A stretch of DNA of 64,000 nucleotides from a virus. The stretch is taken from positions 29,183-93,182 of the IMG/VR virus record IMGVR_UViG_3300033148_007360. One strand, written 5' to 3'. Position 1 is the first letter of the stretch, and every line of letters starts with the position of its first letter. The translations under genes and the position numbers were made by a program. The notes beneath the pieces were generated by a model. That model did not search any database, was not told where the DNA came from, and worked only from the letters and a program-made list of their open reading frames with translations. Below are positions 9,614 to 63,190 of this stretch, piece after piece.

Positions 9614-9664
9614 TAGTTCACCTCCCATATCTGACATCTATGGCCCTCGCGCCGCTCTAGTTAC

Positions 9665-34449: not shown

Positions 34450-35955
34450 TTAAAGAGTCCCGGTTATTTCGCTGAACTCAACTCCCTGCGCTGTAATTAT
34501 TGCTTTTATTTGTATCTTTTCCGCCGGTAGAGTCGGAATCAGGTAAAAGTATGCGATGAGTTGCGATTGATCCAAAGTAGCAGGCAAATTCACGCTGGTA
34601 TCGCATACGATGTTGTACGCATTCAACCCCCTCCGACTTTTTACATACCGGAAAATGGGTTCGGTCAGCCGTTCAAGTTTATCCATCGCTATTTCATCCA
34701 GGGGATCGTAGTGAACCTCCCTTGCCACCCTGGCTACACGACTCTCGATGTAGTCCAGCATCCTCCGCACACTTATTCTCGTCATCGGACTCGTGCCGTT
34801 TCGTAAAAGGGTTTTCTGGTGCAGGATATACAGGTCCCCTCCCTTCATCATTATAGGATTTACAGCATTATCGGTAGCATCGGAGCACATGTATCCAAGT
34901 TCGCCTGGAGTCGGAACGCAACGCACATCGGTAATCAAGGGGTACAGATTCCCGTTTGTTTTACCGGCGGCTGCGTACCACAACTCATTCTGCTCATCAT
35001 TCTTGGCGTGAACCGCAGCCACAGGCCCTGATGGTGGAATCCAAACACTAGTATTATTATAGGGGTCGTAGGTTTTAACCCACGGATAGAAAGCCGCTGC
35101 CCGGTCGGTGTTAATCTTTGAAGTCGGATTCTTGGATCCGCTCAGGGTGCCATTACTCCAATCCACCACCTGAGTCGGTGTTAAGTTGTCCGGGGGATCA
35201 AGTAACGCAATAACATCCCCGCGGCTCTCCGCAATAGAAACCATCTGGTTCCACACGTCCTTGTGTAACGCAGTGTTGTCCGGGCACAAGAGAAACCCGA
35301 TATCCGCGCTGCCCTGCGGCTCCAGAATTCTAAGACCTGTCTTGGTCGCTCCCGTGGAACCGATATAGTCACTAGGGGTAAGGCTGGAAGTTCCATCCGC
35401 TCCCCCGGACGGAGTAAGGGTCTGTGGCGCTGATACATCTCCACCTGAAGTTCCGTTGGTAGCGGTGATATAACTGGAATTCGAGACCTTTGTAGCCCAG
35501 TCTGCATCGGAATCTTTGTCCACCTCGTCATACTCTTCCACCATATAACCGTCCAACCAGACTTCCAGCCGTCTTTTGGACGACCCGGAGGATGCGTTCT
35601 TCATCTCCAGCCTTAGTTGCATGTTAGCCCAAGTTCCAGGGCTGCTTGCCGTGAAGGTAGGGCCGGTTCCCCCCGTAACGGAAGCTGTAACACTGGCCGA
35701 CGCTTCCGTTCCATCGGACACCCTGACAAACCTGACAATTGAACCCTGCGTCAAAAACGCTCTGGCAGCATGCCATGCATTACCGAGGGGAGGGCCCAAC
35801 TTTTCAATAAGGTCATTCACGTTACTCACCGAAATTATTGACCCCACCTCACCCTTGCGAGCGGCCCCGACTATACCTATACTCAAGCCACCAGGGCCGG
35901 TAAAATACTGGGATCTGTCCACCTCGAAAAATTCCGCTTGCGGGTAGTACGCCAT
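34450..35955 (-). CDS. Tail sheath protein, paralogue 1
   Basis: A 501-residue contractile sheath protein. Typical marks: GPGGLSIGIVGAARKGEVGS, LGPPLGNAWHAARAFLTQGS, FVRVSDGTEA at the N-terminus, LLDPPDNLTPTQVVDWSN and AAFYPWVKTYDPYNNTSVWI in the centre, and RISVRRMLDYIESRVARVA with the C-terminal RRGLNAYNIVCD and AYFYLIPTLPAEKIQIKAII. It contracts around the tube to drive DNA delivery. The ATG at 35955 follows AAGGAG. A second sheath gene is immediately upstream. Confidence 0.92.
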   Translation of the reverse strand: MAYYPQAEFFEVDRSQYFTGPGGLSIGIVGAARKGEVGSIISVSNVNDLIEKLGPPLGNAWHAARAFLTQGSIVRFVRVSDGTEASASVTASVTGGTGPTFTASSPGTWANMQLRLEMKNASSGSSKRRLEVWLDGYMVEEYDEVDKDSDADWATKVSNSSYITATNGTSGGDVSAPQTLTPSGGADGTSSLTPSDYIGSTGATKTGLRILEPQGSADIGFLLCPDNTALHKDVWNQMVSIAESRGDVIALLDPPDNLTPTQVVDWSNGTLSGSKNPTSKINTDRAAAFYPWVKTYDPYNNTSVWIPPSGPVAAVHAKNDEQNELWYAAAGKTNGNLYPLITDVRCVPTPGELGYMCSDATDNAVNPIMMKGGDLYILHQKTLLRNGTSPMTRISVRRMLDYIESRVARVAREVHYDPLDEIAMDKLERLTEPIFRYVKSRRGLNAYNIVCDTSVNLPATLDQSQLIAYFYLIPTLPAEKIQIKAIITAQGVEFSEITGTL

Positions 35956-35966
35956 CGCCTTACTCC

Positions 35967-37448
35967 TTACGCCGACTCAGTCAAAGTAGCTCCCTGCTCT
36001 TTGAGCACAAAGTTGAGCACAATGAACTCAGCCGACTTCGTTGGCTTGATATACAGATTTGCATGCATTTCATAGTTTGCTCTCACAGCAGGCGTGTTCA
36101 GCGTGCTGTCGCAGATGATGTTGTATTCCCGCACACCCCTGCGATTTGCGATATACCTCATCAGGGGATCCATACGCCCGACAAACTCGCCCCACGTCCC
36201 CTCGTCATTCGGGGCATGAACAAGCCGCTCTCCCACACTAAGAGCACCCTCTCGAATGTAAAGGAGAAGTCTCCTCACGTTAATCCGGTTGAGGGCCGAG
36301 TCGTGCTGGTACAGAGTAAACTGACCGTTTGCATGTACAGATGTCGGAGTCTTTATAATCGGATTGATTTTTACACTGATTAAATCGGACAGCTCGGCAG
36401 ACGTGAAATCCTGTCGTAAATCAGCCGCATAACCAGACATATCGCCCCTGACTTCACCGGCAGGAGCAAACCAGGGATATTCCACCGAGTCTACATAAGC
36501 ATAGTTTCCAGCCATGACCCCCACCGGCGGAACCCACGCATAAGACCCGAGAAAGTCATTGTAGGTTTTTACATAGGGGTAATACGTCGCAGCCCGTGAC
36601 GTGTCAATTCCACTGTATGCACTGTAATCACCCTGGCCTTTCACGTAATCCACCACTCCGCTTGCAGACAGGTTGTCCGGTGGAGTCAGGATGGCAACAC
36701 AATCTTCGCGAGCCTCGGCGATGTTCACAAGCGCATCCTGCACTGGCCTCGTCGGCCTCTCTGGGCAAGCTATTATATCAACATCAATGGAATTTGGATT
36801 AGCAAACGTCTGTAACCCCGTTGACGTCTGCCCCACAGTAGAACCTATGTAAACCCCGTCTGTTATTCCTGCTACACCGTCGGCACCTCCGGTAAGGGAA
36901 TACGATGCTACAACCGGATCCACTGTCCCGGCGACCACCTGGATGTAATTCGATTTACCGTTTATCGCTACAGTCGTTCCCGTCGTAGACGCTGCGCCCG
37001 TGTTGGAAAGATTGGAAAACGACTCGACCAAGTTGCCCAGATAGTAGACATCCACCCCGAACCCATAAGTACTCTCTACGACAGCGGCCTTGATATCGTT
37101 TCCCCAAGTTCCCTTGCTCACCGCTTCAACCGTAAGCCCGGAGAGACCACCCGAATCGGGAAAATTATAATTAGCATATTCCTGGGAGCCGTCCCCCACA
37201 CGTACAAACCACATGAGTTGACCTTTGCGTAAAAAACCACGAGCGCTGAGAAACGATGTTTCCACCCCGCTCTTGGGAGGCCCGAAGGTGTCATACCACT
37301 GTGATTCCGTGGTGATCAACTGCGGTGAATCGAACGGGCCTTTGGATGCGGTACCCACCATGCCGAAAACGGTCAACCTTGACCGGGTAAACGACACCGC
37401 CTGATCAATAACTCTCGTGTATATATCCGGGATCGTATAGGTTGTCAT
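35967..37448 (-). CDS. Tail sheath protein, paralogue 2
   Basis: A 493-residue sheath protein with the same domain order as its neighbour: AVSFTRSRLTVFGMVGTASK, TFGPPKSGVETSFLSARGFL, MWFVRVGDGSQEYANY, ILTPPDNLSASGVVDY, TSRAATYYPYVKTYNDFLG, RINVRRLLLYIREGALSVGE and a C-terminal RRGVREYNIICD and LYIKPTKSAEFIVLNFVLKE. Surface loops differ most. Two full-length sheath genes suggest a mixed or alternating sheath, or specialised rings. The ATG at 37448 follows AGGAGGAGATGA. Confidence 0.92.
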   Translation of the reverse strand: MTTYTIPDIYTRVIDQAVSFTRSRLTVFGMVGTASKGPFDSPQLITTESQWYDTFGPPKSGVETSFLSARGFLRKGQLMWFVRVGDGSQEYANYNFPDSGGLSGLTVEAVSKGTWGNDIKAAVVESTYGFGVDVYYLGNLVESFSNLSNTGAASTTGTTVAINGKSNYIQVVAGTVDPVVASYSLTGGADGVAGITDGVYIGSTVGQTSTGLQTFANPNSIDVDIIACPERPTRPVQDALVNIAEAREDCVAILTPPDNLSASGVVDYVKGQGDYSAYSGIDTSRAATYYPYVKTYNDFLGSYAWVPPVGVMAGNYAYVDSVEYPWFAPAGEVRGDMSGYAADLRQDFTSAELSDLISVKINPIIKTPTSVHANGQFTLYQHDSALNRINVRRLLLYIREGALSVGERLVHAPNDEGTWGEFVGRMDPLMRYIANRRGVREYNIICDSTLNTPAVRANYEMHANLYIKPTKSAEFIVLNFVLKEQGATLTESA

Positions 37449-38611: not shown

Positions 38612-39712
38612 CTAGTAAATCACCAACTTTGGAATAAAGAACTTTTCTTCACCGGCAAACGTTAATAGATTATCACTCCCAGCATCATATTCCAATCCAA
38701 TCCAATTCGAGTTTCTTGCACTAGCGGATATTCTTGCTTCGTCTATTATTCCTTTTAAAAAATAAGAACCTCCTGCCGCCCTGCCTCCAATCCAAACATC
38801 TATTCCTGTTCCTCCCAGACTCCCAGAATATCCGTTATCGCTTCCCACCTCGTTCCCGTTTCTATATACTTTAAGTAAAGAACCATCGTAGGTTATTCCT
38901 ATTAATTGCCAACTATCCGCAACAATTCCTGCACCAGAAGTTGTGAATCCCCCGTTATGAGAACCATTGTCTCCAAGCCAAGCGTTAACTTCCCCGTCCG
39001 TTTTAACTCTCACGACATATCCATAATCACTTGATTCCCAATTATCTATTATCGTCTGTGTTGGATTACCTGTTAACTTAGGTTTAATCCATGCAAAAAC
39101 CGAAACTTCAGAAAGTTCATCCAAACTTGCATTGTCGCTCACGCTAATATGGTCATCAATCCCATCAAGGTCTAAAGCATTCCCTATTCGCCCGTCAACG
39201 GAATCGTCGGAAGTCATTGACCCGGCGCTTGTGCCGTCATTGCTATTGCTGGTGCTGTCCGACATCTGCGGAGCTGTGCCTGACGGGTCTTCCCCTAAGT
39301 GCCATACGCCCTTGAAATCGGAATCCCATACTTCAGGTCGGCTGCCCGAATCCTCGACATAAGCGGTGTTGTCCGGTTGAGTGTTGTCATAATACAGATA
39401 AATTACAGTATCAGTAGCTGAATCTATCACAAAGTCGCTTTTCGACACCCACAATACAGCCTCTTCGTTAACGGAATCCCACTTCTCCACTTCAACGTAT
39501 AATTGGGTTTGCCCGTCATTTTTTGTTATTGCTATCTTCTTGTAGTTGCCGCCTATTTCGTCAAAAACGGAAGTTACATCCTGATTGTTCTTGCCGACAG
39601 ACGACCCTAAAAATATCGGCAAAGGGAAATGGGTTAGGGGTGAAGATACATCAGTAGAATCAACTGTAATTTTTATGCGCCTTCCCCAATTACCGAGCCA
39701 AGACGAAGCCAT
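38612..39712 (-). CDS. DUF2341 plus LamG-like jelly-roll protein
   Basis: A 366-residue protein. Residues about 4-125 follow DUF2341-type proteins (GNWGRRIKITVDSTDV, FPLPIFLGSSVGKNNQDV, DTVIYLYYDNTQPDNTAY), and 135-345 a concanavalin/LamG jelly roll (FKGVWHLGEDPSGTAPQMSD, GNALDLDGIDDHISVSDN, SVFAWIKPKLTGN, SWQLIGITYDGSLLKVYRNG, GIIDEARISASARN). Such pairs occur on cell-surface and phage adhesion proteins and bind glycans. Base composition looks more AT-rich than the flanking tail genes, suggesting separate acquisition. The ATG at 39712 overlaps the upstream stop (TGATG). Confidence 0.8.
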   Translation of the reverse strand: MASSWLGNWGRRIKITVDSTDVSSPLTHFPLPIFLGSSVGKNNQDVTSVFDEIGGNYKKIAITKNDGQTQLYVEVEKWDSVNEEAVLWVSKSDFVIDSATDTVIYLYYDNTQPDNTAYVEDSGSRPEVWDSDFKGVWHLGEDPSGTAPQMSDSTSNSNDGTSAGSMTSDDSVDGRIGNALDLDGIDDHISVSDNASLDELSEVSVFAWIKPKLTGNPTQTIIDNWESSDYGYVVRVKTDGEVNAWLGDNGSHNGGFTTSGAGIVADSWQLIGITYDGSLLKVYRNGNEVGSDNGYSGSLGGTGIDVWIGGRAAGGSYFLKGIIDEARISASARNSNWIGLEYDAGSDNLLTFAGEEKFFIPKLVIY

Positions 39713-42405
39713 CACAAGAACCCCAACGTTACTATTAACCCTTCAGGCGGTGTAGTCTGTACTGCATCAATATCTATCCTGAGCACATCGTTTTCAGCTA
39801 CGTCATCATTGTTGGTGTCAATTACATAGGATGTAGCCGCGGTATCGCTACCCGTCTCCCCGGAATCTATCTGTAATGTGGTAGACAACATATCAACAGC
39901 TTTTGTTACGTTATGTATTTGTATCTCCAACGTGCCAGTAGTGCCCGCAGTTATCACTTCCGCATGGCAATAGTTCAGGTTTTTCCCGTCAAGTACTTCG
40001 CCGATATGAAAGTAAAACTTGCCGTCACCGGTGCTGACGGGTGACGTCCACTCGAAGGGCACCAACTGGACTTCCCGCTTGAGCACATTATCATGCTGAG
40101 CGCTTGTTAAATGGTAATATTCCCCGGAAGTGCCGCCCTGTAAATTGGCCAGGTCGTCATGGTCGGTTACAACCACGCCTGTATATTCAATTTCAAATGC
40201 ACTTTCCGTTACATCAAACGAACTTGCACCCTCTTCAATTATAACCCGCCCGACCAGCATGCCGAAATGTGATAGAAAATCCGGCGGCGTGGGCACCGTT
40301 GCGGCCTTGGCATTGGCTATTTTATTATAGTCGCCTTGCCCGAACTGTACATGTAAATTACCGGCATAATCCACATAAACCCAATGAACTCCATAATTAT
40401 TATTGCCCAAATCGGCCAGCGTCCCGCTATCATCGTCATACTTCGTGTTGTCTATCTGCGTTTGAGCCGGTAGGGAGGTATGCCCGCCGTTCCCATCGCG
40501 GTACCAATAGTAGAAAGAATCGCCGGAACTGGTGTCAATCGCACCAAGGACCCTGCGGATAAGCCCGAACCATACAACACCCTCGGTAACAGAAATATTC
40601 CGGGTTCCGGTTTCGCCTAAGATTAAACCGTTTGCTCTCTCGAATCCTTTAACTTCTGCGAATCTCTGCATTTGATGAGAAAGAGCATCAATCAGACCCT
40701 CCTGCGCTTCCAGAATCTGTAAAATGGTTCCTATGCGATAAACCTTTCCGAGAAGAATCTGTGAATAATTGTTGATATCCGTAAGCGTATTTGTCGTTTG
40801 TATTACAGGCGACCCGCCGTTGTAATCCACATAGATGTAATTCATTGCGTTGTCTGTAAGGATAACGTTTGTATCTTCCGAGAATGAAAAAAAGACGGTT
40901 TTCCCAGTGTGGATGTCGGTTTCCTTTATTATACCCTCGCCAGCACCTACCGTAACCGTCCCATCGCCGTTATCTGATATTAAATTCTTGGTTATAATCG
41001 CGGAATGCTGCGCTACGTCAATATAATCCCTTAATGTTTTATACGAGAGCGGTTCGGGGGGGTCGTCCATCTGCGCCAATTCCGGCAAGTAGCTTATGTT
41101 GCTTGCAGAACCGTAGTTTACATCCCCGGTTTCACCGCCGTCCGTTGTGTCGTTATTCCCGAATACAACACCGTCAACGTATTGATTTAATTCAATCCCG
41201 TATACTGGCTTGTTTGCCTCTGTACCCTTACGTACAATATTCCCCGTCAATCTGACATTGGTAACAAGTTTCCCGGAAGAACCATAAATACCTATATTTG
41301 AATGTGACCGTCCAACCTGATTATTGCTGTGAGCGGTATTATCCTCCAACCATATGTTGTCGTTGGAACCTCCAACATATATACCTGCTTGTTCATTATA
41401 CGTACACTCATTGTTTTTTATCTTTATGTTCTTCGCTTTAAGCTCAACCTTTATCCCTATAAGGTTCCCTTTACAGATATTATTCTCACAAATAACATCA
41501 GTTATCTCGCCTACTCCACCCAGTGCACTTATCCCAATTCCCTCATCTCCGCACCCGACAACGGTATTACCGAAAATATTTATATGACTGACAACCGATC
41601 CTTGCGCCCATGCAAAAATTCCTTCGTCTCCACAGTTATAACCGAAATTGTTCTCTACATGTACATGCTTGGTTTCCGCCTCATATGAATGAACAAGAAC
41701 AACTCTACTAATAGCAGAGGAAAGATTAATGCCGTAATTCTTGATTACATTAACAAAAGACGAATCTGATATCAAAATTCCGCCATCACGTGAATCAACA
41801 AACCAATTGTTGGAGAAATCACCGTATTGAGACGAAATAAATTGTATGCACGGCCCTTGTAATACCCCTGCTAGGGTTTCAGCGTTGGTGACATATATGT
41901 TGTTTACTTTAACATAGGAGCAATTGTCGAGTTTAATATAATCGTAACCTGTACCGGCGTTAAGGTCGTATGAACCGTCAATCTTCAAATCCCTTACGGC
42001 TATACTGGAATTCCCGCCGGTGGGGTCATCGTTGCTTATCAAAGTGAAAGAACTAGCGCCTTCTGCAATTTTAAGAACGGTATTCCACCCCATGCCAAGA
42101 AGCATAAAAGATGACGGTATCGTAATACCGGAAGAAAAACTGAACAAACCTTCAGCCAGCAAAATCCGTCCTGGCCCGCTAAATGAATCTATAGCAGCCT
42201 GTATTTCAACCTGATCGTCAACGCCATCGCAAACATAATCGGCAATTTTCTTTACATGTTCAGATGAATTGGATGCGGCTACCACTATATCAGGAGCCAC
42301 AATATCCGAGGGCTTGGCATATTGAGGATGGTCATCATCCAGTAATCCTCCGAGATCACCATGATCCGTTATAATATACCTTGCATCATAACCGCCACGT
42401 GTCAT
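39712..42405 (-). CDS. Tail or head fibre with parallel beta-helix domain
   Basis: An 897-residue adhesin. The N-terminus has the phage-fibre signature DHGDLGGLLDDDHPQY, and a related HDDLANLQGGTSGEYYHLT segment appears near 780. Residues about 50-440 form a pectate-lyase-3-type beta-helix: YVCDGVDDQVEIQAAIDSF, then turns with repeated N-N-x-(V/I/C) strings such as VENNFGYNCGDEGIF, IFGNTVVGCGDEGIG and ENNICKGNLIGIKV. The C-terminal half is a shaft plus a jelly-roll-like tip (EITLD-type strands near the end). ATGA overlap with the neck gene upstream. Being next to the LamG gene, it may form a neck- or collar-attached fibre. Confidence 0.8.
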   Translation of the reverse strand: MTRGGYDARYIITDHGDLGGLLDDDHPQYAKPSDIVAPDIVVAASNSSEHVKKIADYVCDGVDDQVEIQAAIDSFSGPGRILLAEGLFSFSSGITIPSSFMLLGMGWNTVLKIAEGASSFTLISNDDPTGGNSSIAVRDLKIDGSYDLNAGTGYDYIKLDNCSYVKVNNIYVTNAETLAGVLQGPCIQFISSQYGDFSNNWFVDSRDGGILISDSSFVNVIKNYGINLSSAISRVVLVHSYEAETKHVHVENNFGYNCGDEGIFAWAQGSVVSHINIFGNTVVGCGDEGIGISALGGVGEITDVICENNICKGNLIGIKVELKAKNIKIKNNECTYNEQAGIYVGGSNDNIWLEDNTAHSNNQVGRSHSNIGIYGSSGKLVTNVRLTGNIVRKGTEANKPVYGIELNQYVDGVVFGNNDTTDGGETGDVNYGSASNISYLPELAQMDDPPEPLSYKTLRDYIDVAQHSAIITKNLISDNGDGTVTVGAGEGIIKETDIHTGKTVFFSFSEDTNVILTDNAMNYIYVDYNGGSPVIQTTNTLTDINNYSQILLGKVYRIGTILQILEAQEGLIDALSHQMQRFAEVKGFERANGLILGETGTRNISVTEGVVWFGLIRRVLGAIDTSSGDSFYYWYRDGNGGHTSLPAQTQIDNTKYDDDSGTLADLGNNNYGVHWVYVDYAGNLHVQFGQGDYNKIANAKAATVPTPPDFLSHFGMLVGRVIIEEGASSFDVTESAFEIEYTGVVVTDHDDLANLQGGTSGEYYHLTSAQHDNVLKREVQLVPFEWTSPVSTGDGKFYFHIGEVLDGKNLNYCHAEVITAGTTGTLEIQIHNVTKAVDMLSTTLQIDSGETGSDTAATSYVIDTNNDDVAENDVLRIDIDAVQTTPPEGLIVTLGFL

Positions 42406-44167: not shown

Positions 44168-45595
44168 TTATGACCAGATTCCACCAGTTATGGAACCGGT
44201 GCAGTAGAAATCGCCATTGATGAGCTTCTTGGCACCGCTGGTAGCAATCGCCTTGTTGGCGGACAGGTCTTTATGGATGTAAGTCGGAATAGTGAACGCC
44301 GGAATGTAAGGCGCCCAGACATATCCCATATCGTACAAGGAATCGCCCTTATGCCCCATCACGTACTGAGTGGAAGTCATAAAGGTGTTCTTGTACACAG
44401 TCCACTGTCCGTCCAGATTCCCGAGCTTGTGAATGCCGCGACCAGGAGCTCTCCCAACCACGTTCGGATCCCGCTGGAACCGTCCGTTGGATGCCAGACT
44501 TTCAATCACAGCACACACATCGAGACCGGCGACTATCCAATTGCCGACACCCCTCTTGGTGGAGTTCAGAATAAGGTTGCTGGCTTCGATCAACTTGTCC
44601 ACGAAGGTGTTCTTGTACTGCTCCCAAACATCCGTAGATGTCTTCGTCCAAGCAGTCACGGAGTTACCGGCATTTGCGATTATCTCATTGATAATCATCT
44701 GATCAATAGCGAACTTGATCTCGTTGGTTGCAGCGGCCACCAGTTCAGTCTCGGCGGACACGCCGTGAGTGCGCTTCAAGTCCTGTTGCGCCCGAAGACC
44801 CCAGATGACATTCAGGATGAAATCCTCCGCCACGACCGGTATGGAACTCAGATTCATGTAAAGTTCGGGCAAGGTGTTATTCATTTCCTGGTTGAAATCG
44901 TAGCTCACGGTAACGGCTGCAGACGTGTTACCACTGAAGGTTACATCGTATTCGCCGGTGGTGTAATTTATCGTGTTGTTTCCGGCACCGACATCCCCTA
45001 TCAAGCTCCCGTTCCCGTCATCCGTGACGACAAGGGTTCCATCGGTGAACAGCATGCTGCCCGGAATAACAGGAGTCCAGGACAAGGTCCCGGTGTAGTT
45101 CGTAGTTCCAGATACTCCCACCGACTCGCTATCAATGTGCTTTGAGGGATAGTAGGGAGCATTCGTGGTAGCAGCTACCTGACCCTCGGTGGCCTGTCCT
45201 TTGGAGCTGCCAAAGAGAAACTCCAGAAAGAATATCAGCGAAGTGGGGCCGTCCATCGGTTGCACCGAGACAAGATCCTGAGCAATCAGCCCCGGAAAGA
45301 AAGCCCTGGCAATCCCAAAACTCCACTTCTCGAAATCGCCGATGTTCACCAGCTTGGTGCTCTCGTCCATAGTCTGGAAGTACTCGTACAGGTTCCTCAG
45401 CAGGACTACAGTCGAGTGCTTCACCCACTCATCCAGCTTATCCCATCCATCACTGTCAATGGTAAGTTCCTGGAGAGTTACGGCATCTTCTTTAGAGCGA
45501 CCCTCATAAAGACTCCGAGGGGGCCTCCTCATAAAGTCTTCAGCAAGAGTCACCAACTTGCTTTGATACTGTTGGTATTGTCTTTCCACATCCAT
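44168..45595 (-). CDS. Major capsid protein (gp23-like, HK97 fold)
   Basis: A 475-residue capsid protein. The marks of the T4 gp23 family are in the N-terminal third (FEKWSFGIARAFFPGLIAQD, LVSVQPMDGPTSLIFFLEFL), with LKRTHGVSAETELVAAATNE and the C-terminal NWIVAGLDVCAVIESL and AYIPAFTIPT-like YIPAFTIPTYIHK. Residues about 160-245 form an inserted beta domain (YTGTLSWTPVIPGSMLF, NTINYTTGEYDVTFSG). The N-terminal segment up to about 35 holds TLAED and LYEG, both compatible with (L/I)-x-E prohead protease cleavage. Downstream is a terminator hairpin; upstream the protease/scaffold gene. Confidence 0.93.
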   Translation of the reverse strand: MDVERQYQQYQSKLVTLAEDFMRRPPRSLYEGRSKEDAVTLQELTIDSDGWDKLDEWVKHSTVVLLRNLYEYFQTMDESTKLVNIGDFEKWSFGIARAFFPGLIAQDLVSVQPMDGPTSLIFFLEFLFGSSKGQATEGQVAATTNAPYYPSKHIDSESVGVSGTTNYTGTLSWTPVIPGSMLFTDGTLVVTDDGNGSLIGDVGAGNNTINYTTGEYDVTFSGNTSAAVTVSYDFNQEMNNTLPELYMNLSSIPVVAEDFILNVIWGLRAQQDLKRTHGVSAETELVAAATNEIKFAIDQMIINEIIANAGNSVTAWTKTSTDVWEQYKNTFVDKLIEASNLILNSTKRGVGNWIVAGLDVCAVIESLASNGRFQRDPNVVGRAPGRGIHKLGNLDGQWTVYKNTFMTSTQYVMGHKGDSLYDMGYVWAPYIPAFTIPTYIHKDLSANKAIATSGAKKLINGDFYCTGSITGGIWS

Positions 45596-45608: not shown

Positions 45609-46292
45609 TTAACCGTTCACACGCCTGATCAGCGCATTGGTACGAGTTGTTTTCACCTCTTCACGGATTCTCCTGCTCTTACCTTCCCCGCCTCCGAGAT
45701 CGCTGTCTTCATCCGGGAGGGGATCAATCCGGGGAATTCCATCGCTGATAACAGAGCGGAGAGATTCCACTTTCATTTTCGCCTCTTCCACCGTCTGTAC
45801 ACCCTTGAACAGGGGCAAGACGGCTTTCAACTTTTCCTCACCGAGGCCGCCGAGTTCCCTCTCTAGATAATCAACCACGCTCGCCTTCCGAGCCTCTTCA
45901 CTTTCAGCCTTCAGGCTATCACGCTCTTTCTTGATAGACTCAAGTTCCGCCTTTTGCTCTTTCAGCATGGCAAGGGACTCTTCAAGAAGGTCTTCAGCCG
46001 CATCGTACCGCACCTTGAGATTCTCGTATTTCTTTTGAAGGTCGGACTTTTCCCTTTCTCCCTCGGTGCGGAGTTTGCTGAGTTCACTTTTAACAAGCGC
46101 CTTCTCCTGCTGCTCCTCTTTGATTCTGTCCACAGACGCCTGGAGAAGTGAACGGCTGGCCTCCAACTCGGCTTTCAGCCTCTCCACCTCTTCCTCCAAG
46201 TTCTCACGTTTGGATCTTTCGCGGGTTAGTTCCTCTTGAACACGAGTGTGGTCTTCAAGAGACACCACGCTTCTTTGATCTTCAACACCCAT
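45609..46292 (-). CDS. Nested scaffolding protein, internal start within the protease gene
   Basis: Within the protease-scaffold frame, ATG at 46292 is preceded by AAGGAGAAGCATAAA, a good RBS, and begins MGVEDQRSVVSLEDHTRV. It would give a 227-residue scaffold without the protease domain. Lambda C/Nu3 uses the same arrangement, which makes many scaffold copies per protease. Seen directly: RBS and start codon. Inferred: that it is used. Confidence 0.65.
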   Translation of the reverse strand: MGVEDQRSVVSLEDHTRVQEELTRERSKRENLEEEVERLKAELEASRSLLQASVDRIKEEQQEKALVKSELSKLRTEGEREKSDLQKKYENLKVRYDAAEDLLEESLAMLKEQKAELESIKKERDSLKAESEEARKASVVDYLERELGGLGEEKLKAVLPLFKGVQTVEEAKMKVESLRSVISDGIPRIDPLPDEDSDLGGGEGKSRRIREEVKTTRTNALIRRVNG

Positions 46293-47024
46293 TTTATGCT
46301 TCTCCTTTTTCTCCTGCTCCGGCTTCCCACCCTGATTGACATGTTCAATAACTTGACTCGCGGGTGTTCCGCCATGTACTCGTTTTATACCACATCCACC
46401 CTCGCCCAAAGACTCCAGTAAATCTTGACATCTATTACACGTCTTGACATCTTGCGAAGCCTCGGCCAAGTGGCGGACGACCTCTATAGCACGGCTCTTA
46501 TTCTCAACAGCAACAACTTCGGGAAGAGCATCCTCTACACTGGGCACAAGAACAAAATCCCATCCCTCTGGATAATAATCCTCCTGCACATATTCGTAAC
46601 CGTCTTTAGTATCAACCGATCCCGACCCACGGGAACTGACCCCCATCTTCACGTCGGCCTCAAGAAGCGTTTTTAGAATCCGGCCCGACGGAGTTTCAAG
46701 AACATCAATAACACCCCTGACCGCCTTCCCATCAAGCCAAACGTCACGCACGATATGGGAAGCGTTCTTCGGATCCACCTCCAACCTGTCGCCAGGATGC
46801 CCGAGTTCCCCTAAAATAACCCCCCGCTTCAAATTCTGAGCAAACTCCGAATCCTCTTTGAGCAAATTCTCCCAAACCGATATAGGATATATCCTCTTGT
46901 TCCGGTTCGGAGTATCCGCCATCTGGATAGTCCCCTCCATTCGGAGAAGGATACCCTTCGGGAGTTCACCCTTTACAACATGAGCATCCTCCAAGAGAAA
47001 TTCCGATGTTATTGGTCGAGTCAT
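45609..47024 (-). CDS. Prohead protease fused to scaffolding protein
   Basis: A 471-residue protein. Residues 1-185 are a T4 gp21-type (peptidase family S77) protease: GVILGELGHPGD with His76, and VKMGVSSRGSGSV with the catalytic Ser130 or Ser131. The rest (about 245-420) is a long charged coiled coil like gp22-type scaffolds, followed by a short LGGLGEEKLKAVLPLF helix and a basic C-terminus (RIREEVKTTRTNALIRRVNG), the part that in other phages contacts the capsid shell. The N-terminus EFLLEDAH contains a likely self-cleavage site. In T4 protease and scaffold are separate genes; here they are one frame with an internal start at 46292. Confidence 0.88.
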   Translation of the reverse strand: MTRPITSEFLLEDAHVVKGELPKGILLRMEGTIQMADTPNRNKRIYPISVWENLLKEDSEFAQNLKRGVILGELGHPGDRLEVDPKNASHIVRDVWLDGKAVRGVIDVLETPSGRILKTLLEADVKMGVSSRGSGSVDTKDGYEYVQEDYYPEGWDFVLVPSVEDALPEVVAVENKSRAIEVVRHLAEASQDVKTCNRCQDLLESLGEGGCGIKRVHGGTPASQVIEHVNQGGKPEQEKKEKHKMGVEDQRSVVSLEDHTRVQEELTRERSKRENLEEEVERLKAELEASRSLLQASVDRIKEEQQEKALVKSELSKLRTEGEREKSDLQKKYENLKVRYDAAEDLLEESLAMLKEQKAELESIKKERDSLKAESEEARKASVVDYLERELGGLGEEKLKAVLPLFKGVQTVEEAKMKVESLRSVISDGIPRIDPLPDEDSDLGGGEGKSRRIREEVKTTRTNALIRRVNG

Positions 47025-47060: not shown

Positions 47061-47171
47061 TTGCCCCCAGAAAGCCCATATTTCAATTCTAAGGCGTTTT
47101 TATTTTTTCCTAAGGGGTAACCTCTCGCGGAAAGAAAAAACGTCACACAATCGAAATGTGTAGCTTACAGG
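47061..47171. repeat. Interspersed inverted-repeat element, copy at 47.1 kb
   Basis: The left arm (47061-47108) is identical over 48 bp, in opposite orientation, to 7574-7621. The right arm (about 47129-47171) is the inverted, slightly diverged copy ending in GAAATGTGTAGCTTACAG, and it overlaps the stop codon of the upstream gene. The centre holds AAGGGGTAACCTCT. It fills the gap between that gene and the protease-scaffold gene. Confidence 0.85.
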
Positions 47172-47530
47172 AGCATCCACTTCTTATCCTTGATACTTCC
47201 CTGTTGCTCCGCCCCTGCAGGTATGTAGACTGCCCCAGTTTTCTTATTCAAGTAAACTTTGCCGAAATTGTAAACGGTTCTGGCAACCCGTCTTCCATCA
47301 TCCCCCAACCACCTGACTAAAAGAGATTCAAGTTGAGATAGACCGCATTCTATTTTCGGACGATTGGCAACTTTCGAGAACTCAATCGTATACAACCCTT
47401 CATACTTTTCGGAATGCATCGCCAGCGGTCCGTAACGTATAACCTCCGCCCGGAGAACCTCGGTGATTCTTACCACGTCTTCGGGAGTTCCCCCCAGAAC
47501 TACTTGCTGCTTATCAGCACCATCGGACAT
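47165..47530 (-). CDS. Hypothetical protein
   Basis: A 121-residue protein upstream of the prohead protease, separated from it by a repeat element. It has a helix (VRITEVLRAEVIRYGPLAM), strands (YEGLYTIEFSKVANRPKIEC), a helix with LESLLVRWLGDDGRR and a hairpin VYLNKKTGAVYIPAGA. It is an alpha/beta fold that I do not recognise. The start overlaps the previous small gene by 31 nt, which suggests coupling. Location suggests a head-assembly accessory. Confidence 0.6.
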   Translation of the reverse strand: MSDGADKQQVVLGGTPEDVVRITEVLRAEVIRYGPLAMHSEKYEGLYTIEFSKVANRPKIECGLSQLESLLVRWLGDDGRRVARTVYNFGKVYLNKKTGAVYIPAGAEQQGSIKDKKWMLL

Positions 47531-47655
47531 CTTTTCTGTCGCTTCAGTTGACGAATATATTTGAGAGCGTCAAACATACGAAGGTCGGACAGTCTTTTCC
47601 CGCCCACATGAATGGAATCTCGAAACACCATGCAGTGAACAAGGAGAGGATTCAT
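47500..47655 (-). CDS. Small basic hypothetical protein
   Basis: A 51-residue basic protein, MNPLLVHCMVFRDSIHVGGK with a helical KYIRQLKRQKRC stretch. The ATG at 47655 overlaps the glycosyltransferase stop (ATGA), the usual coupling in this genome, so I reject the longer frame reaching 47799. Function unknown. Confidence 0.55.
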   Translation of the reverse strand: MNPLLVHCMVFRDSIHVGGKRLSDLRMFDALKYIRQLKRQKRCPMVLISSK

Positions 47656-50018
47656 CCGCGCTTGCTCCGGGTATCGTTTCTCCGCCACTTCGGAATCCCT
47701 ACGTACAAGAACGGCCTTTCGAGCGGTTTCAACGTGGACAGCGCAGACAGGGCCTCTTGTACAGTCGCATCGTGTTGTGTCTTCGTACCGATTTCCCACG
47801 TTTTTATCAATCTCCTGTGATACGCATGAGCCAGAGATGTGACCGCCTGATAAAAAGCAGGTTGTAACTCCACGGCCTTCTCCAAATCCATAATACCTTC
47901 GAGTTCTTCCCCGTCGTTAATCCGTTGTAAACCCCTGTTGAACCAAAGTTGTGCATCGTTCGGGTTTTTTCTTAAAGACTTGTCGTTGATTTCCATGTAT
48001 CGGTCGAGCTTCGCCTGTATCACTTCGGGCGGCTTCAAATACCCCGCATGCTGGATTGCAATAGCGTAAGGCGGATTAGTAAGAACAAGATTGTGCTCCT
48101 GTATCGAATCGGCAACCGTCTCGTGAACCGGTCGGTTGTAACGAATTTTACCCTTGTTCTTTTGAAGATTGAACAACCGGACGTTCTCCTGAAGGGTAGG
48201 TTCGTGATCTACGTGGTGATTGGCTATCTGCACTAGGTAAGCATCCGAGTCACCCGTATTTATAGTCCTGTAAACACCTACCCAATGAACAGGTTCAATC
48301 CACTCGTCAACATCCAGTTGCAAAACCCAATCCGTCTTCATCCTATCGAGCGCCACGTTTCTTGCTTCGGAGAGATCCCCGCTCCAGCCGCGAATCTGGT
48401 AGACATCATCCGTGAATCTCTTCGCAATCTCAACCGACCTGTCCGTGGAACCAGTATCCACTACAACAATCTGATTGGCTCGATTCTGAATGCGGAGGAA
48501 GAACTCCTCCAGTTCCGCCTCTTCGTTCTTCATCACCACAAGAATGCCGAGCGTCGCGGAGGACGGGAACTTGGCAAGACTTACATTCTTGGCCACAAGA
48601 TGACTGTAATTACCGGCTCCGATAAGAAGAAATTGCTTGTCCGTATCTATATTCTCGTAGAATTCGTACTTCCGTTCCCTAAGTTCCCTGCGGTAATAGC
48701 CGTAGTGCAATACACGAAAGGGAACTTCAACGATATTCGCAGGGGGAAAAGCCGGAATATTACCACAATGCAACCCCTGTTTATTCCCAAGAACAATCTC
48801 TTGGTTGGGTTCGACTTTGAACATCCTCGGGCCGTGCATTCTCCCGAAAACACCGTCCGTCCTGTGATACTCGCAGTCATCATCCCAGAATGTATAGAAC
48901 GAAAAGTCGTAAGCCTTGACATGCGGGTCTTCTGGAGACATCAGCGCTTCGGCGTCCCCCCTGGTCATCTCGAACACTTCATCGCCGTCAATAGAAATCG
49001 CCCAGTCCGGGTTACGCCCGAAAGCCATCTCCATCGCACGATTCCTGTCTCTCCTCTCGTTGAACGGCTCGCTACCGTCCAATCTCCTGTAAGCTACAAC
49101 AGCGGGATGATTCTCACATATCTCGCCGGTACGGTCGGTACTGGCATCATCAAGAACTACTATCTCATCCGCGAATCCCGCAGTTGCGTCCAAACTCTTT
49201 TTTATAGTATCCTCGCAGTCTTTAACTCGATAAAAAGCCACGAGTTTCTTGGGCCTGTCGAGTCCCCGCCTGTCCCGCCACTTTTCAAGAAACTTCGACC
49301 TGTTGGCGACACCGTGTCGGAGTTCCGGGAATCTCGCTATCGTCCTCCCCGAATGGTGATACACAAACGTATCACGAGCGATAACAGCTTTGTACCCGGC
49401 ATCCTGAAGCCTTAGAACTATGTCGTTATCGTCAAACCCGCCGGGGGAGAATAATTCGTCCAGATGACCCACAGTATCGAGCGCCGACATCCGCAGCATC
49501 ATGCAAAATCCCGAAAGGAAAAAGGTAAGATCCCGTACTCCATTAAACTGTTCTTGAATAGCCTCGGCATGCTTGAGATAATTTGCGGGAGTAATCTCCC
49601 CCGTATCCGCTACAATCCTCTGAGGTCCACCGACAGCATTCGAACACGGCCCGACAGCTCCAACCGGATAAAGAATCGGGTGATCTTCTTCAAAAACATC
49701 CCTCATCCGGGCCAGAGCACCCTCCGGCACAAGGGTGTCATCGTTCAAAAATACAACGTAGTCGCCGTCCGCGTGCTCAAGCCCCCTGTTTATCCCCTTG
49801 ACCCATCCTAAATTTTCGCCGGAGTGGATCGGCTCCAAACTGCTGTACCGCTCAGCCAGATTCTCCAGAAACCCCTCGGTGCCGTCAGTGGAGCCGTTGT
49901 TAACTACTATAACTTCGTATTCGCTCGACTTCTCCCAGTCCGACCTGAAAGATTCAAGACATTCAACGAGATACCTTAAATTATTCCACGTAGGTATAAT
50001 TACAGAAATCTTTGACAT
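47652..50018 (-). CDS. Triple GT-A glycosyltransferase (family 2) with TPR-like C-terminus
   Basis: A 788-residue protein with three consecutive nucleotide-sugar transferase modules. Module 1 (1-250): SVIIPTWNN, NNGSTDGTEGF, FLNDDTLVPEG (DxD-like) and GGFDDNDIVLRLQDAGY. Module 2 (257-460): FYRVKDCEDTIKKSLDATAG, LDDASTDRTGE, SIDGDEVFEM. Module 3 (489-680): ILVVMKNEEAELEEFFLRIQ, VDTGSTDRSVE, LQLDVDEWIEP. A TPR-like helical tail (682-740; DAQLWFNRGLQRINDGEELE) follows. The modules keep acidic sugar-nucleotide/metal-binding residues. Modules 2 and 3 resemble the single-domain enzymes with a TPR tail often seen in bacterial glycan clusters. The gene sits among capsid genes, so the acceptor may be a virion protein, modified DNA bases or a host glycan; the sequence does not decide. 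ATG at 50018 after GGAGAGGGG. Confidence 0.88.
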   Translation of the reverse strand: MSKISVIIPTWNNLRYLVECLESFRSDWEKSSEYEVIVVNNGSTDGTEGFLENLAERYSSLEPIHSGENLGWVKGINRGLEHADGDYVVFLNDDTLVPEGALARMRDVFEEDHPILYPVGAVGPCSNAVGGPQRIVADTGEITPANYLKHAEAIQEQFNGVRDLTFFLSGFCMMLRMSALDTVGHLDELFSPGGFDDNDIVLRLQDAGYKAVIARDTFVYHHSGRTIARFPELRHGVANRSKFLEKWRDRRGLDRPKKLVAFYRVKDCEDTIKKSLDATAGFADEIVVLDDASTDRTGEICENHPAVVAYRRLDGSEPFNERRDRNRAMEMAFGRNPDWAISIDGDEVFEMTRGDAEALMSPEDPHVKAYDFSFYTFWDDDCEYHRTDGVFGRMHGPRMFKVEPNQEIVLGNKQGLHCGNIPAFPPANIVEVPFRVLHYGYYRRELRERKYEFYENIDTDKQFLLIGAGNYSHLVAKNVSLAKFPSSATLGILVVMKNEEAELEEFFLRIQNRANQIVVVDTGSTDRSVEIAKRFTDDVYQIRGWSGDLSEARNVALDRMKTDWVLQLDVDEWIEPVHWVGVYRTINTGDSDAYLVQIANHHVDHEPTLQENVRLFNLQKNKGKIRYNRPVHETVADSIQEHNLVLTNPPYAIAIQHAGYLKPPEVIQAKLDRYMEINDKSLRKNPNDAQLWFNRGLQRINDGEELEGIMDLEKAVELQPAFYQAVTSLAHAYHRRLIKTWEIGTKTQHDATVQEALSALSTLKPLERPFLYVGIPKWRRNDTRSKRG

Positions 50019-50053: not shown

Positions 50054-50431
50054 TTAAACTGATGAAGGCGTATGGCTAACTGCAACCGCCTTCACCAAAA
50101 AACCGCCATTCCCACAAGCTTCAACTGTACCGGGATTCTCTATTTCAAACCTAATATACATCCCTGTCGGATCCACCCTGTAAGTTCGCCGGACTTCGTT
50201 CCCTGCGGAAAGTGTCAAAGTGAATGTGTCAAACGGTATCGTATCGAATTGAACTCCATCCAAAGATGCATACATGTTTATCTTGACACCGGCATTCGCA
50301 GTACCGGCATAGTCAATATAACCCTGTACATCAAGGGTGTAAAGACCTTCGATATAAGCGTCTTTGGTGGAATCGGTTTGCTTCTTTTCCCCCGCTGTAA
50401 GGGATGAACCTGAAAGTAATGTTGTCACCAT
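50054..50431 (-). CDS. Probable small virion protein (decoration-like)
   Basis: A 125-residue all-beta protein: MVTTLLSGSSLTAGEKKQTD, YIEGLYTLDVQGYIDYAGTA, GVKINMYASLDGVQFDTIPF, RRTYRVDPTGMYIRFEIEN. This jelly-roll-like pattern is common in small phage structural proteins near capsid genes that bind the outside of heads or tails. The ATG at 50431 is chosen for its AGGAG; a TTG two codons earlier has none. Confidence 0.6.
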   Translation of the reverse strand: MVTTLLSGSSLTAGEKKQTDSTKDAYIEGLYTLDVQGYIDYAGTANAGVKINMYASLDGVQFDTIPFDTFTLTLSAGNEVRRTYRVDPTGMYIRFEIENPGTVEACGNGGFLVKAVAVSHTPSSV

Positions 50432-50468
50432 CTTCAAAATCTCCTGATTGAAATTCTACTGAACACGG

Positions 50469-51200
50469 TTACATGTTCCTTGCATTCCCCAGCGCATCAC
50501 CGTAAGCACGAGCAAGAGGGAGAAGTTCATTCATTGGAAGATCAATTTTGATGCCCCTCATAGTCATGGAGGGGTCAATCAGATTCGCAGACAGCCACCT
50601 GTGATGACCGTCTATAATAAACCCGTCCTCAGACGCAACCATGTATGACCCCTGAAGGAACTTCTTTGTAGCCTCTACACCGTTCTTCGCAGTCGAAGTA
50701 ATGGACTTATCAAAATAAATCTGGCGCTGGATAGGTTTCAAATTCGACGCCCTCTCCGAAAGGTTCGAAACCGATACGACATCATCCGGTTTTGAGCCGT
50801 CTCTCAAACCGTTCTCCAGAAAGAATTCCGCCTCCTCACCGGACAGACCCTCGGGAAACGGATCGGCTGGACTTGTTCCCGGAGCAAACGGTTCCCTGAC
50901 ATCCACATACCCTTCTTTCAATCGCCGCTGCAAGTCCTTAACCTGCCCTGGAGTAATCACCGGCATATCCCTTCGCCTGGTCTTCCCAAGAGAAGCCAAT
51001 ACCTGAACACGGAGGTAGTTCTTGTCGAAATTCGGGATAGCCTCATCCAGCGACTTGCCCTGATACTTGCGGAATAGTTCGTCCGCAAACTCTCTCGCTT
51101 CCGCCAATGGCGTTGAGTCAATCTCCATAGTACCGGCGGCTTGCCCACCGCCAGCCCCCTCTTCAAACAAGAACCGCCTTATGAGTTCTTTAGCATTCAT
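50469..51200 (-). CDS. ParB/sulfiredoxin-like domain protein with leader motif
   Basis: A 243-residue protein. The N-terminus MNAKELIRRFLFEEGAGGG fits the leader shared by many proteins encoded between here and 62 kb, with FLFEE as a possible protease site. The C-terminal third carries DGFIIDGHHRWLSANL, the ParB/sulfiredoxin-type D-G-x-H-R-x pattern, preceded by an LKPIQRQIYFDKS segment. In phages such domains bind or cut nucleic acid or bind nucleotides. The start at 51200 follows AGGGG. The leader suggests entry into the prohead, but this is inference. Confidence 0.65.
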   Translation of the reverse strand: MNAKELIRRFLFEEGAGGGQAAGTMEIDSTPLAEAREFADELFRKYQGKSLDEAIPNFDKNYLRVQVLASLGKTRRRDMPVITPGQVKDLQRRLKEGYVDVREPFAPGTSPADPFPEGLSGEEAEFFLENGLRDGSKPDDVVSVSNLSERASNLKPIQRQIYFDKSITSTAKNGVEATKKFLQGSYMVASEDGFIIDGHHRWLSANLIDPSMTMRGIKIDLPMNELLPLARAYGDALGNARNM

Positions 51201-53476: not shown

Positions 53477-54322
53477 TCAAGCAACTCTCCGACCGCTCAT
53501 TCCACGGAAATCCCTGATCAGTCCCCCTACGTAAGAAGAACAATACCTCGCCAAATCCCTAAGCGACCCTCTTGCTCTTATGTCAAGATTCTTCCTCGAA
53601 ATCCACTTCATATCATAGCCAAGGTTTCTTCCGACATTCTCCAGATAGTCCCTCAATTCCCCGTGATTATGACTTAAATCAAGAAATCTGTCGAATGCTT
53701 CAAAACTTTTCCTGTCCCTCATTCTCAAGTAAGTATCAATGATCTTGATCCAAGTATTCGCAGGAGAACCGCCCCCGAGAATATCGAAAAGTTTTTCCCC
53801 ATGCTTATATACGCGCTTCATGTCCGAAATGGACCTCGTTTCAAGACACTCAAGCGCCGCTATACGGGTAAGTTTGCGAATTAAACTCCTACACCTCTCT
53901 TCATCACCAGCAGAGGCAATAACATTACCGGAGAGCATATCATCCAACTCATCAAGGTGATGCAAAGCCTTACCAAAGTCATCGTCGCTCCTTGATATGC
54001 CATATGCTTCCTGCACCGTCATAAGAAAATCCCTGATCTCTTCCGCGTCTCCAGACCTAAATACTTCACTATCCATAAAGTTCGTTATAACAGCAGTGTG
54101 GTTTCTTATTACAGCAGCACCAACTCTTACCAAGATTTCACGAAACTCCTCGAACAACACCCGGAAAAGACCCCTCGCTTCCTCCAGCGTGTCCTTCATC
54201 GCTTCACAGGCATACAAGTCAAAGAAGTCTGTCGTGCGAGACGATTCAAAAAGAACCCTCTCAATCAAATACGATGTCAATTTCATTTTCAACAACAACT
54301 TTTGCTCATCTGGGCCGCTCAC
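53477..54322 (-). CDS. Leader-bearing helical protein, tandem paralogue 2
   Basis: A 281-residue helical protein. The frame opens with GTG at 54322 (GTGA overlap with the upstream stop), but ATG at 54286 gives MKLTSYLIERVLFESSRTTD, identical to the start of the neighbour and containing the leader (YLIE-R, LFE-S). About 37 N-terminal residues and the C-terminal 90 (RMRDRKSFEAFDRFLDLSHN, SRKNLDIRARGSLRDLARYC) match the neighbour, while the middle is diverged. No known domain. Probably an internal or head-associated protein. Confidence 0.7.
   Translation of the reverse strand: MSGPDEQKLLLKMKLTSYLIERVLFESSRTTDFFDLYACEAMKDTLEEARGLFRVLFEEFREILVRVGAAVIRNHTAVITNFMDSEVFRSGDAEEIRDFLMTVQEAYGISRSDDDFGKALHHLDELDDMLSGNVIASAGDEERCRSLIRKLTRIAALECLETRSISDMKRVYKHGEKLFDILGGGSPANTWIKIIDTYLRMRDRKSFEAFDRFLDLSHNHGELRDYLENVGRNLGYDMKWISRKNLDIRARGSLRDLARYCSSYVGGLIRDFRGMSGRRVA
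54177..54290. repeat. 114-bp exact direct repeat, copy 2 (leader of 53.5-54.3 kb gene)
   Basis: This segment is identical, base for base, to 55004-55117 in the same orientation. It covers the start codon MKLTS and about 36 following codons of each paralogue, plus a few bases upstream. Identity at synonymous positions implies a recent duplication, gene conversion or strong constraint at the nucleotide level. Confidence 0.95.
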
Positions 54323-55113
54323 CTGCCCCCCATCTCCTCAAACTGGCGGATAAGGCCCCTCACGAAGGATGAACAGTACCTCGCCAGCTCTCGAAGTGAT
54401 CCTCTAGCTCTTATGTCAAGATTCTTCCTCGAAACCCACCTCATATCATAACCAGCGTCTCTCCCAACAACCTCTAGATATTCCCTCAATTCCCCATGAC
54501 TATGCTGTAAATCAAGAAATCCGTCGAATGCTTCAAAACTTTTCCTGTCCCTCATCCTCAAGTAAGCATCAATAATTTTAACCCAAGTCCGAGGAGAGCC
54601 TGCTCGTAATACAGCTGGACTGAAAAGCTCCTCGCCAGCTTCGTACACGTCCCTCATCTCAGAAATGGACATCGTTAGCACACGCTTTTCAGCCGCCTGT
54701 TTCAGAGAAGCCCAAATTCCATCCCTAAGAAATACATCCTCAAACCCCCCTATCGATTCGCCTGCATCGACAAGCCTATGAAGAAATGATTCAGCAGCCA
54801 CCAAGTCCGGATCATTCCCGCGTATACCATACACATTCTTTACCAGCGCCATATAATCAGCAACCTCCTCAAGAGACCCATCAAAAATAAGATCATCTCT
54901 CCCCTTTTCCGCCATGAAAGCAGTATGCTCCCTGATAACTTCCTTCCCAACAATCACCATAAGCTCGTAAAAGTCGTCAAACAAAACTCGAAAGAGGTTC
55001 TTGGCTTCCTCCAGCGTGTCCTTCATCGCTTCACAGGCATACAAGTCAAAGAAGTCTGTCGTGCGAGACGATTCAAAAAGAACCCTCTCAATCAAATACG
55101 ATGTCAATTTCAT
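54319..55113 (-). CDS. Leader-bearing helical protein, tandem paralogue 1
   Basis: A 264-residue helical protein starting MKLTSYLIERVLFESSRT at 55113. It is paralogous to the gene that follows: identical leader, conserved C-terminal third (RMRDRKSFEAFDGFLDLQHS, SRKNLDIRARGSLRELARYC) and a different centre (residues about 60-160). The preceding gene overlaps by four bases. Function unknown; the leader suggests processing by the prohead protease. Confidence 0.72.
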   Translation of the reverse strand: MKLTSYLIERVLFESSRTTDFFDLYACEAMKDTLEEAKNLFRVLFDDFYELMVIVGKEVIREHTAFMAEKGRDDLIFDGSLEEVADYMALVKNVYGIRGNDPDLVAAESFLHRLVDAGESIGGFEDVFLRDGIWASLKQAAEKRVLTMSISEMRDVYEAGEELFSPAVLRAGSPRTWVKIIDAYLRMRDRKSFEAFDGFLDLQHSHGELREYLEVVGRDAGYDMRWVSRKNLDIRARGSLRELARYCSSFVRGLIRQFEEMGGR

Positions 55114-62080: not shown

Positions 62081-63190
62081 TTATGTTATGCGGATGGGCA
62101 TCACCACAAAGATTGAATCTTCAGAATCAATTCTGATAGACGACAATGCATCCGCATGCTGGATGGTTACTTCTTCATCGTTGATATTATTAAGTATATC
62201 CAGCATATAACTTCCGTTGACACCGACTCGAAACTTGTCCTTACACTCACAGTGAATATTTTTTTCCACCATACCGTTATCTTCAACATCCGAACCGGAA
62301 GTCAATTTCATGTTGCCGGGTTTTGTGTCAAAGATGATTGCTTTTGTTCCTTTGTTTACAAAAGGCATTACCTTTTTAATCGCGTCCACCATCTCTTTTT
62401 TGTTCACAGTGATTTTTCTGTCACAATTCGGCACGACCTTCCAGTAATCAAGATAGTCTTCTCTCTCAAGTCGTATTAAAATACGTTTTGTGCCGATTTC
62501 AAAAAGAATGTCCTGATTGCGACGAACGAAAATTATGTCAACCGGACTTTTAGGAAGAATCTTATAAAGAAGACGCAAGTATCGCGAGGGGATTAACATG
62601 TCTTCAACCTCTCCCTGACATTCCGTGTTACTGATATGCAATCGGAGCCCATCCGTTGCCACCATTCGGAGTTTATCTTCGTTCTGTTGAAAGAAAATAC
62701 ACTTCATAATGTTATACATTCTTCTGTAGCTGTTTTTCTCTTTACATGCCGCGGGTAATACTTTTTCAAGACATTCCTTCAAGTTTTTGGAGTTTATCTG
62801 ATTATACCTTCCCCCAATTTCCGCTTCCATCGTGTCACGTACCGACGGGAACTCATCCCCGGCAATTCCCGCGAGTGCGTAGACCGTGCCGTCGGTTTCG
62901 GTTATCTTGAGTTGATTGTCTGTAGATTGAAAAATCAGGTTCCCATTAGCGTTTTTTAGTAGATTGAGTAACATCTTACAGTTGACGGCAATTTCACCCC
63001 CTGCTTCAGGGGTAGCCTCGATTGTGTCTTGGTAGACAGCTTGTGAATCCGTGGTTGTGATTTTGACATGATTACCTACGCTAAAAAGCATGCTGCTAAG
63101 TATTGGAGCAGCTTCGTTGTTAGAATCCGCCCATTTTCCGGCGTCTTTTAAAGCCTTCTCAATTGCCTTCTTGTCCGCTGTAAACCTCAT
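62081..63190 (-). CDS. DNA polymerase sliding clamp (DnaN-like), copy 2
   Basis: A 369-residue beta clamp: PILSSMLFSVGNHVKITTTD, FIFQSTDN-like NLIFQSTDNQLKITETDG, RMVATDGLRLHISNTE (the central clamp signature) and the C-terminal IFVVMPIRIT matching V-I-M-P-M-R-L. It is clearly divergent from the clamp at 8.5-9.6 kb, with more Lys/Asn/Ile. It lies 50 kb away, beside small zinc-ribbon genes. The ATG at 63190 follows GGGGGAGG. Roles could differ between replication and late transcription or repair. Confidence 0.88.
   Translation of the reverse strand: MRFTADKKAIEKALKDAGKWADSNNEAAPILSSMLFSVGNHVKITTTDSQAVYQDTIEATPEAGGEIAVNCKMLLNLLKNANGNLIFQSTDNQLKITETDGTVYALAGIAGDEFPSVRDTMEAEIGGRYNQINSKNLKECLEKVLPAACKEKNSYRRMYNIMKCIFFQQNEDKLRMVATDGLRLHISNTECQGEVEDMLIPSRYLRLLYKILPKSPVDIIFVRRNQDILFEIGTKRILIRLEREDYLDYWKVVPNCDRKITVNKKEMVDAIKKVMPFVNKGTKAIIFDTKPGNMKLTSGSDVEDNGMVEKNIHCECKDKFRVGVNGSYMLDILNNINDEEVTIQHADALSSIRIDSEDSIFVVMPIRIT

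Follow-up and report, generated by a model that had tools for sequence, protein, structure and literature searches.

The stretch of DNA analyzed here (the window, 64,000 nucleotides of a 99,067-base virus record) carries a three-module glycosyltransferase gene at 47652-50018 on the minus strand. It starts with ATG behind a strong SD/ribosome-binding site (gagaggaggagagggg, then aaaaATG) and encodes a protein of 788 aa (P0001). An earlier sequence-only reading of this DNA had proposed an ORF with three family 2 glycosyltransferase (GT2) modules at exactly these coordinates, and Pfam likewise finds three separate PF00535 domains (whole-protein E-value = 1.3e-55). Module 1 (residues 1-255; 49254-50018) is a GT-A/GT2 unit with a rhamnosyl/fucosyltransferase- and GalNAcT-like fold; it harbors PF00535 at residues 5-183 and the motifs NNGSTD, NDD and DDND, and its VIA matches include PcManGT, WrtF and GalNAc-Ts (Z 19-21). 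Module 2 (residues 256-482; 48573-49253), defined by Pfam and alignments, is a PF13704-like GT-A unit with DDASTD and DGDE, and PF13704 itself is also matched there by Pfam. Module 3 (residues 483-663; 48030-48572), assigned from phmmer and a fold match to ThuS, is a SunS/ThuS/GmaR-like GT2 unit containing VDTGSTD, DVDE and VHE. The last part comprises TPR helices (residues 664-770; 47709-48029), presumably serving for acceptor docking. All these segments lie on the minus strand.

The motifs quoted in the sequence-only reading (NNGSTDGT, DDASTDRT and DTGSTDRS) are all present, and so is a separate DxD-like metal motif in every module: N92-D93-D94 in module 1 (49737-49745; NxD, not DxD), D344-G-D346-E347 in module 2 (48978-48989) and D569-V-D571-E572 in module 3 (48303-48314). 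An AlphaFold2 model built with 14 homologs (pLDDT 86, pTM 0.83) predicts three GT-A folds at about residues 1-250, 258-480 and 488-660, in agreement with the proposed modules, so that each of the three domains combines the GT2 profile with a predicted GT-A fold. The TPR-like tail that had been noted is backed by PF13431 (27.4 bits against a cut-off of 24.4) and by modelled helices at residues 664-766, but it is short, with about two repeats, and the protein ends about 20 residues past the last of these helices. Modules 2 and 3 resemble each other only weakly (phmmer E-value = 2e-5) and module 1 belongs to another GT2 type, so that the protein is no simple triplication.

Downstream of the glycosyltransferase gene follow a 121-aa orphan with no PHROG match (47165-47530, minus strand), an S77 (T4 gp21-type) prohead protease (45609-47024, minus strand; PF03420, 1e-21; phrog_207), a Gp23-type major capsid protein (44168-45595, minus strand; PF07068, 1.1e-43; phrog_138) and a head-tail adaptor. 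Directly upstream, a 127-aa orphan without Pfam or PHROG match (50054-50437, minus strand) is a candidate acceptor by its position only. Neither this gene nor the next one (50469-51200) matches a head family, and a nucleoside deoxyribosyltransferase and a phosphoesterase are encoded farther upstream. Since the upstream genes are orphan or metabolic, the glycosyltransferase gene sits at the upstream edge of the head block, with which it is co-oriented. The gene had been described as lying between the capsid protease and accessory head genes, inside a head operon; the protease side and the shared orientation stand, but no accessory head gene was recognized upstream, and membership in an operon with the head genes may only be surmised. 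A scan for promoters and terminators yielded no more sites than shuffled sequences, and terminator-like sites did not exceed chance. In a Gp23-based synteny study, the capsid gene had no adjoining glycosyltransferase gene in any of roughly 80 other Gp23-type loci, and the arrangement is hence not an ancestral one among T4-type phages. A capsid profile of six sequences proved too diverse and was dropped as a search query. Among isolates, the capsid is closest to that of Thornevirus SP15, a phage known for its hypermodified DNA.

The record bears further features of interest. Two adjacent, diverged tail sheath genes (34450-35955 and 35967-37448; 33% identical, both phrog_23) are followed by tube-like genes at 33366-33884 and 33903-34427. 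Between the sheath and neck genes, the region 38612-42405 encodes a LamG/DUF2341-like protein (identified by eye) and a beta-helix protein (PF13229), which are probably fibres or tail decorations and which, among the fetched loci, are matched only in a near-identical contig (L005). Two adjoining paralogous orphans at 53477-54322 and 54319-55113 (281 and 264 aa) have N- and C-terminal parts that are almost identical. The phage apparently has two sliding clamps, a DNA polymerase III beta clamp (62081-63190, Pfam) and a clamp-like ORF recognized by eye (8474-9637). Outside the window, a second glycan cluster of the same record (L002 7497-12488, minus strand) contains a sulfatase/phosphodiesterase-like gene, three GT2-like genes, a Capsule_synth (PF05159) gene and two methyltransferases. 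At both record ends (L002 534-1106 and L004 175-2338) there are genes rich in short CSFGERCSFG-type repeats, one of them with a masked N run.

Single-sequence searches with the window protein returned no close relatives in viral or genome contigs, making profile alignments necessary; homologs were found with a module 3 profile and then with a profile of full-length members. Full-length colinear homologs were detected at 23 viral loci, corresponding to 22 distinct proteins with 30-38% identity and at least 89% of the length of the window protein. The predicted GT2-GT2-GT2-TPR fusion is present in at least 22 other uncultured phages. Of the 50,697 records of isolate phages, none covered at least 80% of the query when three family members were used. 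A Gp23 search of the 22 homolog contigs, many of them fragments, found none, so that the phages carrying the family are of at least two structural types, the window being its only T4-type (Gp23/S77 protease) member seen. About 1,490 genomes from five phyla, searched for the whole module arrangement, yielded only two flagellin-linked homologs and no phage-type copy, a lack that shows little.

Alignment of the family revealed that the metal and catalytic residues of the three modules are retained despite about 30% identity. Invariant positions in the 23 full-length phage members are N41, D45, N92, D94, D197, D199 and H221 in module 1, R325, W339, D346 and E347 in module 2 (D344 in 22 of 23), and D526, D569, D571, E572, R614, H632 and E633 in module 3. 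Loss of the metal-binding residues in two modules, which the sequence-only reading had named as evidence against its proposal, was thus not seen. The DDASTD of module 2 is found in the window protein and is replaced in most relatives (e.g., FARSQDRT, HLCRSTDKT), so that module 2 may bind the nucleotide there in another way; judging from the alignment, its activity in most relatives, which do not have these first GT2 aspartates, is less certain.

In all 22 relatives the gene lies between head-tail adaptor/closure genes and the genes for Neck1, tail terminator, tube and tape measure. On the upstream side, each of the 22 distinct loci has an adaptor/closure-like gene (cluster c0) no more than a few genes away, and in most of them it is the immediate neighbour; one c0 member matches the head-tail adaptor phrog_615 and, weakly, the head closure protein Hc1. 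The next downstream gene is Neck1/tail-completion or its positional equivalent in 20 of the 21 loci where downstream sequence is present (phrog_5, Neck1, was matched in 13 of 22 records), followed by tail terminator (phrog_78/176), tube-like (phrog_2175) and tape-measure genes. Several relatives also have capsid and protease genes farther upstream. The gene is hence within or beside structural genes, as a virion glycosyltransferase would be, in 22 of 22 relatives, and the window gene is near protease and capsid. At least one head-tail gene occurs within 1.5 kb in 22/22 family loci, compared with 22/109 other GT2 ORFs of the same locus sets (two of these 22 positives are truncated family copies, leaving about 20/107 without them; Fisher p ~1e-13), an exact figure that is generous since training of the neighbour models used these family loci themselves. 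The positional contrast between the family and other GT2 ORFs is not subtle. Virion-gene synteny is no proof of substrate, and conserved neighbours need not be acceptors. In some relatives the genes directly upstream encode a GT4 transferase, O-methyltransferases, a radical SAM/SPASM enzyme and an MptE-like protein, as would be expected for richer glycans. Separately, seven loci (L120, L143, L147, L152, L159, L165 and L176) have single GT2 genes of about 400-445 aa at most 1.5 kb from a homolog of the siphophage major head protein (c11), which suggests a second, simpler type of virion glycosylation in uncultured contigs.

The closest chromosomal homologs found belong to bacteria. Two of 398 Firmicutes genomes encode a colinear homolog from module 1 through the TPR (1163 and 1166 aa), and both genes directly adjoin a flagellin gene, with csrA, fliW and flgK/flgL-like genes at one locus and fliD/fliS-like genes (by eye) at the other. 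In both homologs D94 and D197 of module 1 are retained, as are the metal motifs in modules 2 and 3. The phage members, including that of the window, are separate from these two homologs in the tree. Concerning module 3 with the TPR, the closest proteins by sequence are GmaR of Listeria (phmmer, 1.4e-21) and SunS (1.3e-11), while the fold of module 3 matches ThuS (Z 21.1 over 253 residues, 3.0 A) and also SunS, in fold-library rows that do not cover the TPR separately. GmaR acts on flagellin as an O-GlcNAc transferase (PMC3150276 and its references), the combination of GT2 and TPR has been used to recognize flagellin glycosyltransferases, and the acceptor specificity of Maf-1 depends on its C-terminal TPR (PMC13317340). 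Listeria "phage" records matching module 3 (OR848533 etc.; L013 is OR848533.1) have motility-type genes around gmaR and the look of host chromosome, and were consequently not counted as phage evidence.

The head-tail gene setting in at least 22 phages, taken together with the flagellin-adjacent bacterial kin, makes a short sugar chain on virion proteins the most likely product. We consider it probable that the 788-aa protein is a multi-step protein glycosyltransferase of flagellin-glycosyltransferase kinship, building a short glycan on a virion structural protein. The virion decoration suggested in the sequence-only reading gains from this setting, from the flagellin-linked homologs and from the likeness of module 3 and the TPR to protein glycosyltransferases. 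In the mechanism that we propose, the enzyme would be cytoplasmic and its TPR tail would dock the acceptor. Module 3 (SunS/GmaR-like) would most likely start the glycan by linking a sugar to a protein side chain, and modules 1 and 2 would each extend the glycan by one sugar, giving a glycan of about three sugars from one polypeptide. The donors would be host nucleotide-sugars, used during late expression; they are assumed to come from the host because no sugar-activating nucleotidyltransferase (PF00483) is present in the record. The ancestry would be common to flagellin glycosyltransferases, with the phages keeping the architecture among their head-tail assembly genes. The identity of the acceptor, the sugars, the order of steps and the benefit (shielding, adsorption or stability) are matters that we infer.

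Phage glycosyltransferases can also act on the host surface, and a change of teichoic acid, O-antigen, capsule or flagellin leading to superinfection exclusion or receptor change, as with GtrB/TarP-type phage transferases, would agree with the matches of module 1 to GtrB-like PHROGs and to the structures of S. aureus TarP/TarS and Listeria RmlT, as well as with the flagellin linkage of the nearest bacterial kin. We regard this as unlikely, because no lipid-carrier partner was seen, the 788-aa protein has no long hydrophobic stretch (inspected by eye), the TPR-borne signature is that of protein glycosyltransferases and the gene holds a fixed place among virion assembly genes in 22 contigs, not a lysogeny or moron position. 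A passenger (moron) gene, catalytically relaxed and without a virion role, is the least credible of the readings considered here: its absence beside the capsid in the roughly 80 Gp23-type loci looks like a lineage-specific acquisition in a T4-type background, but the metal motifs of all three modules are retained in 23 divergent members and the position is conserved in siphophage-type contigs.

DNA as the substrate had been offered in the sequence-only reading as well, the modules then building an oligosaccharide on modified bases against restriction. Phage glycosyltransferases can hypermodify DNA, according to the part of PMC12619734 that cites Pyle 2024, and the kinship of the capsid with that of SP15 points the same way. 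On the other hand, no thymidylate-synthase-like pyrimidine-modifying enzyme was found in the 99-kb record, which may be incomplete, while control genomes gave matches; no DNA-binding domain was found; and the genes of the relatives lie among virion assembly genes, with homologs that are protein transferases. With neither position nor homology pointing to DNA, we regard this suggestion as very improbable. Just as improbable is a free glycan synthase polymerizing a polysaccharide in the manner of chondroitin or heparosan synthases, e.g., for a capsule-like coat. The best Foldseek E-values do belong to the two-domain chondroitin polymerase K4CP, but any tandem GT-A protein would be expected to give such matches, module 3 with the TPR resembles peptide transferases, and the rmsd over both domains is 10-22 A, so that the domain arrangement of chondroitin-type synthases is not matched.

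Retaining virion protein glycosylation as the preferred reading, we see roughly even chances for a broader proposal: that the window protein and its relatives form an unnamed GT2-GT2-GT2-TPR family of flagellin-glycosyltransferase ancestry, in siphophage- and T4-type viruses, which is a self-contained machine that, during virion assembly, builds a short glycan in full on a protein of the neck, tail or capsid. To our knowledge, glycosylated phage virions are documented in few cultured phages only. Three GT2 modules and a TPR between head-closure and Neck1 genes would offer a sequence marker for virion glycosylation in many uncultured phages of different head types, and it becomes testable which virion protein is coated and whether the coat affects adsorption or recognition.

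Virion glycosylation by phages is in itself already known. As cited in PMC12363180, mycobacteriophages encode transferases (Che8 gp110, Corndog gp38, Myrna; Freeman et al., 2023) that add glycans to the capsid and the tail tube. The likeness to our protein lies in a phage-encoded glycosyltransferase, theirs modifying capsid and tail tube proteins, whereas the three-module fusion with a TPR was found only in the window and in uncultured phages. None of the 70 isolate records that match the window protein at 1e-5 (tblastn) is a Mycobacterium phage, hence Che8/Corndog-type enzymes are not recognizable kin by tblastn. In the literature searched, which was covered in part, three full GT2 modules and a TPR in one chain, fixed among head-tail genes and tied to flagellin enzymes, were not found; the part that appears new is this architecture, with its conserved head-tail position across phage types and its ties to flagellin enzymes. 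The K4 chondroitin polymerase and PmHS2 also have more than one GT-A domain per chain, but these are two, in another relative arrangement (rmsd over 10 A) and without a TPR. SunS/ThuS (SP-beta YolJ/SunS; TIGR04195) share the fold of module 3 and a helical C-terminal extension and act on a protein or peptide; the phage enzyme differs in its two extra modules, no bacteriocin precursor was identified nearby, and the TIGR04195 SunS family cut-off is not reached (71.4 vs. 350 bits). GmaR and the transferases of the Clostridium flagellar glycosylation island share the order of GT2 followed by TPR, the flagellin enzymes acting on a self-assembling structural protein. GmaR continues after its TPRs into an anti-repressor domain (residues 351-637; PMC3150276), which is absent from the phage enzyme. 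The latter has three glycosyltransferase modules and is encoded among phage assembly genes, away from any flagellin gene (in the window, near the S77 protease and Gp23), in contrast to the two bacterial homologs, which are encoded beside flagellin. The comparison suggests that phages and bacteria share the solution of flagellin glycosylation for coating a self-assembling protein polymer.
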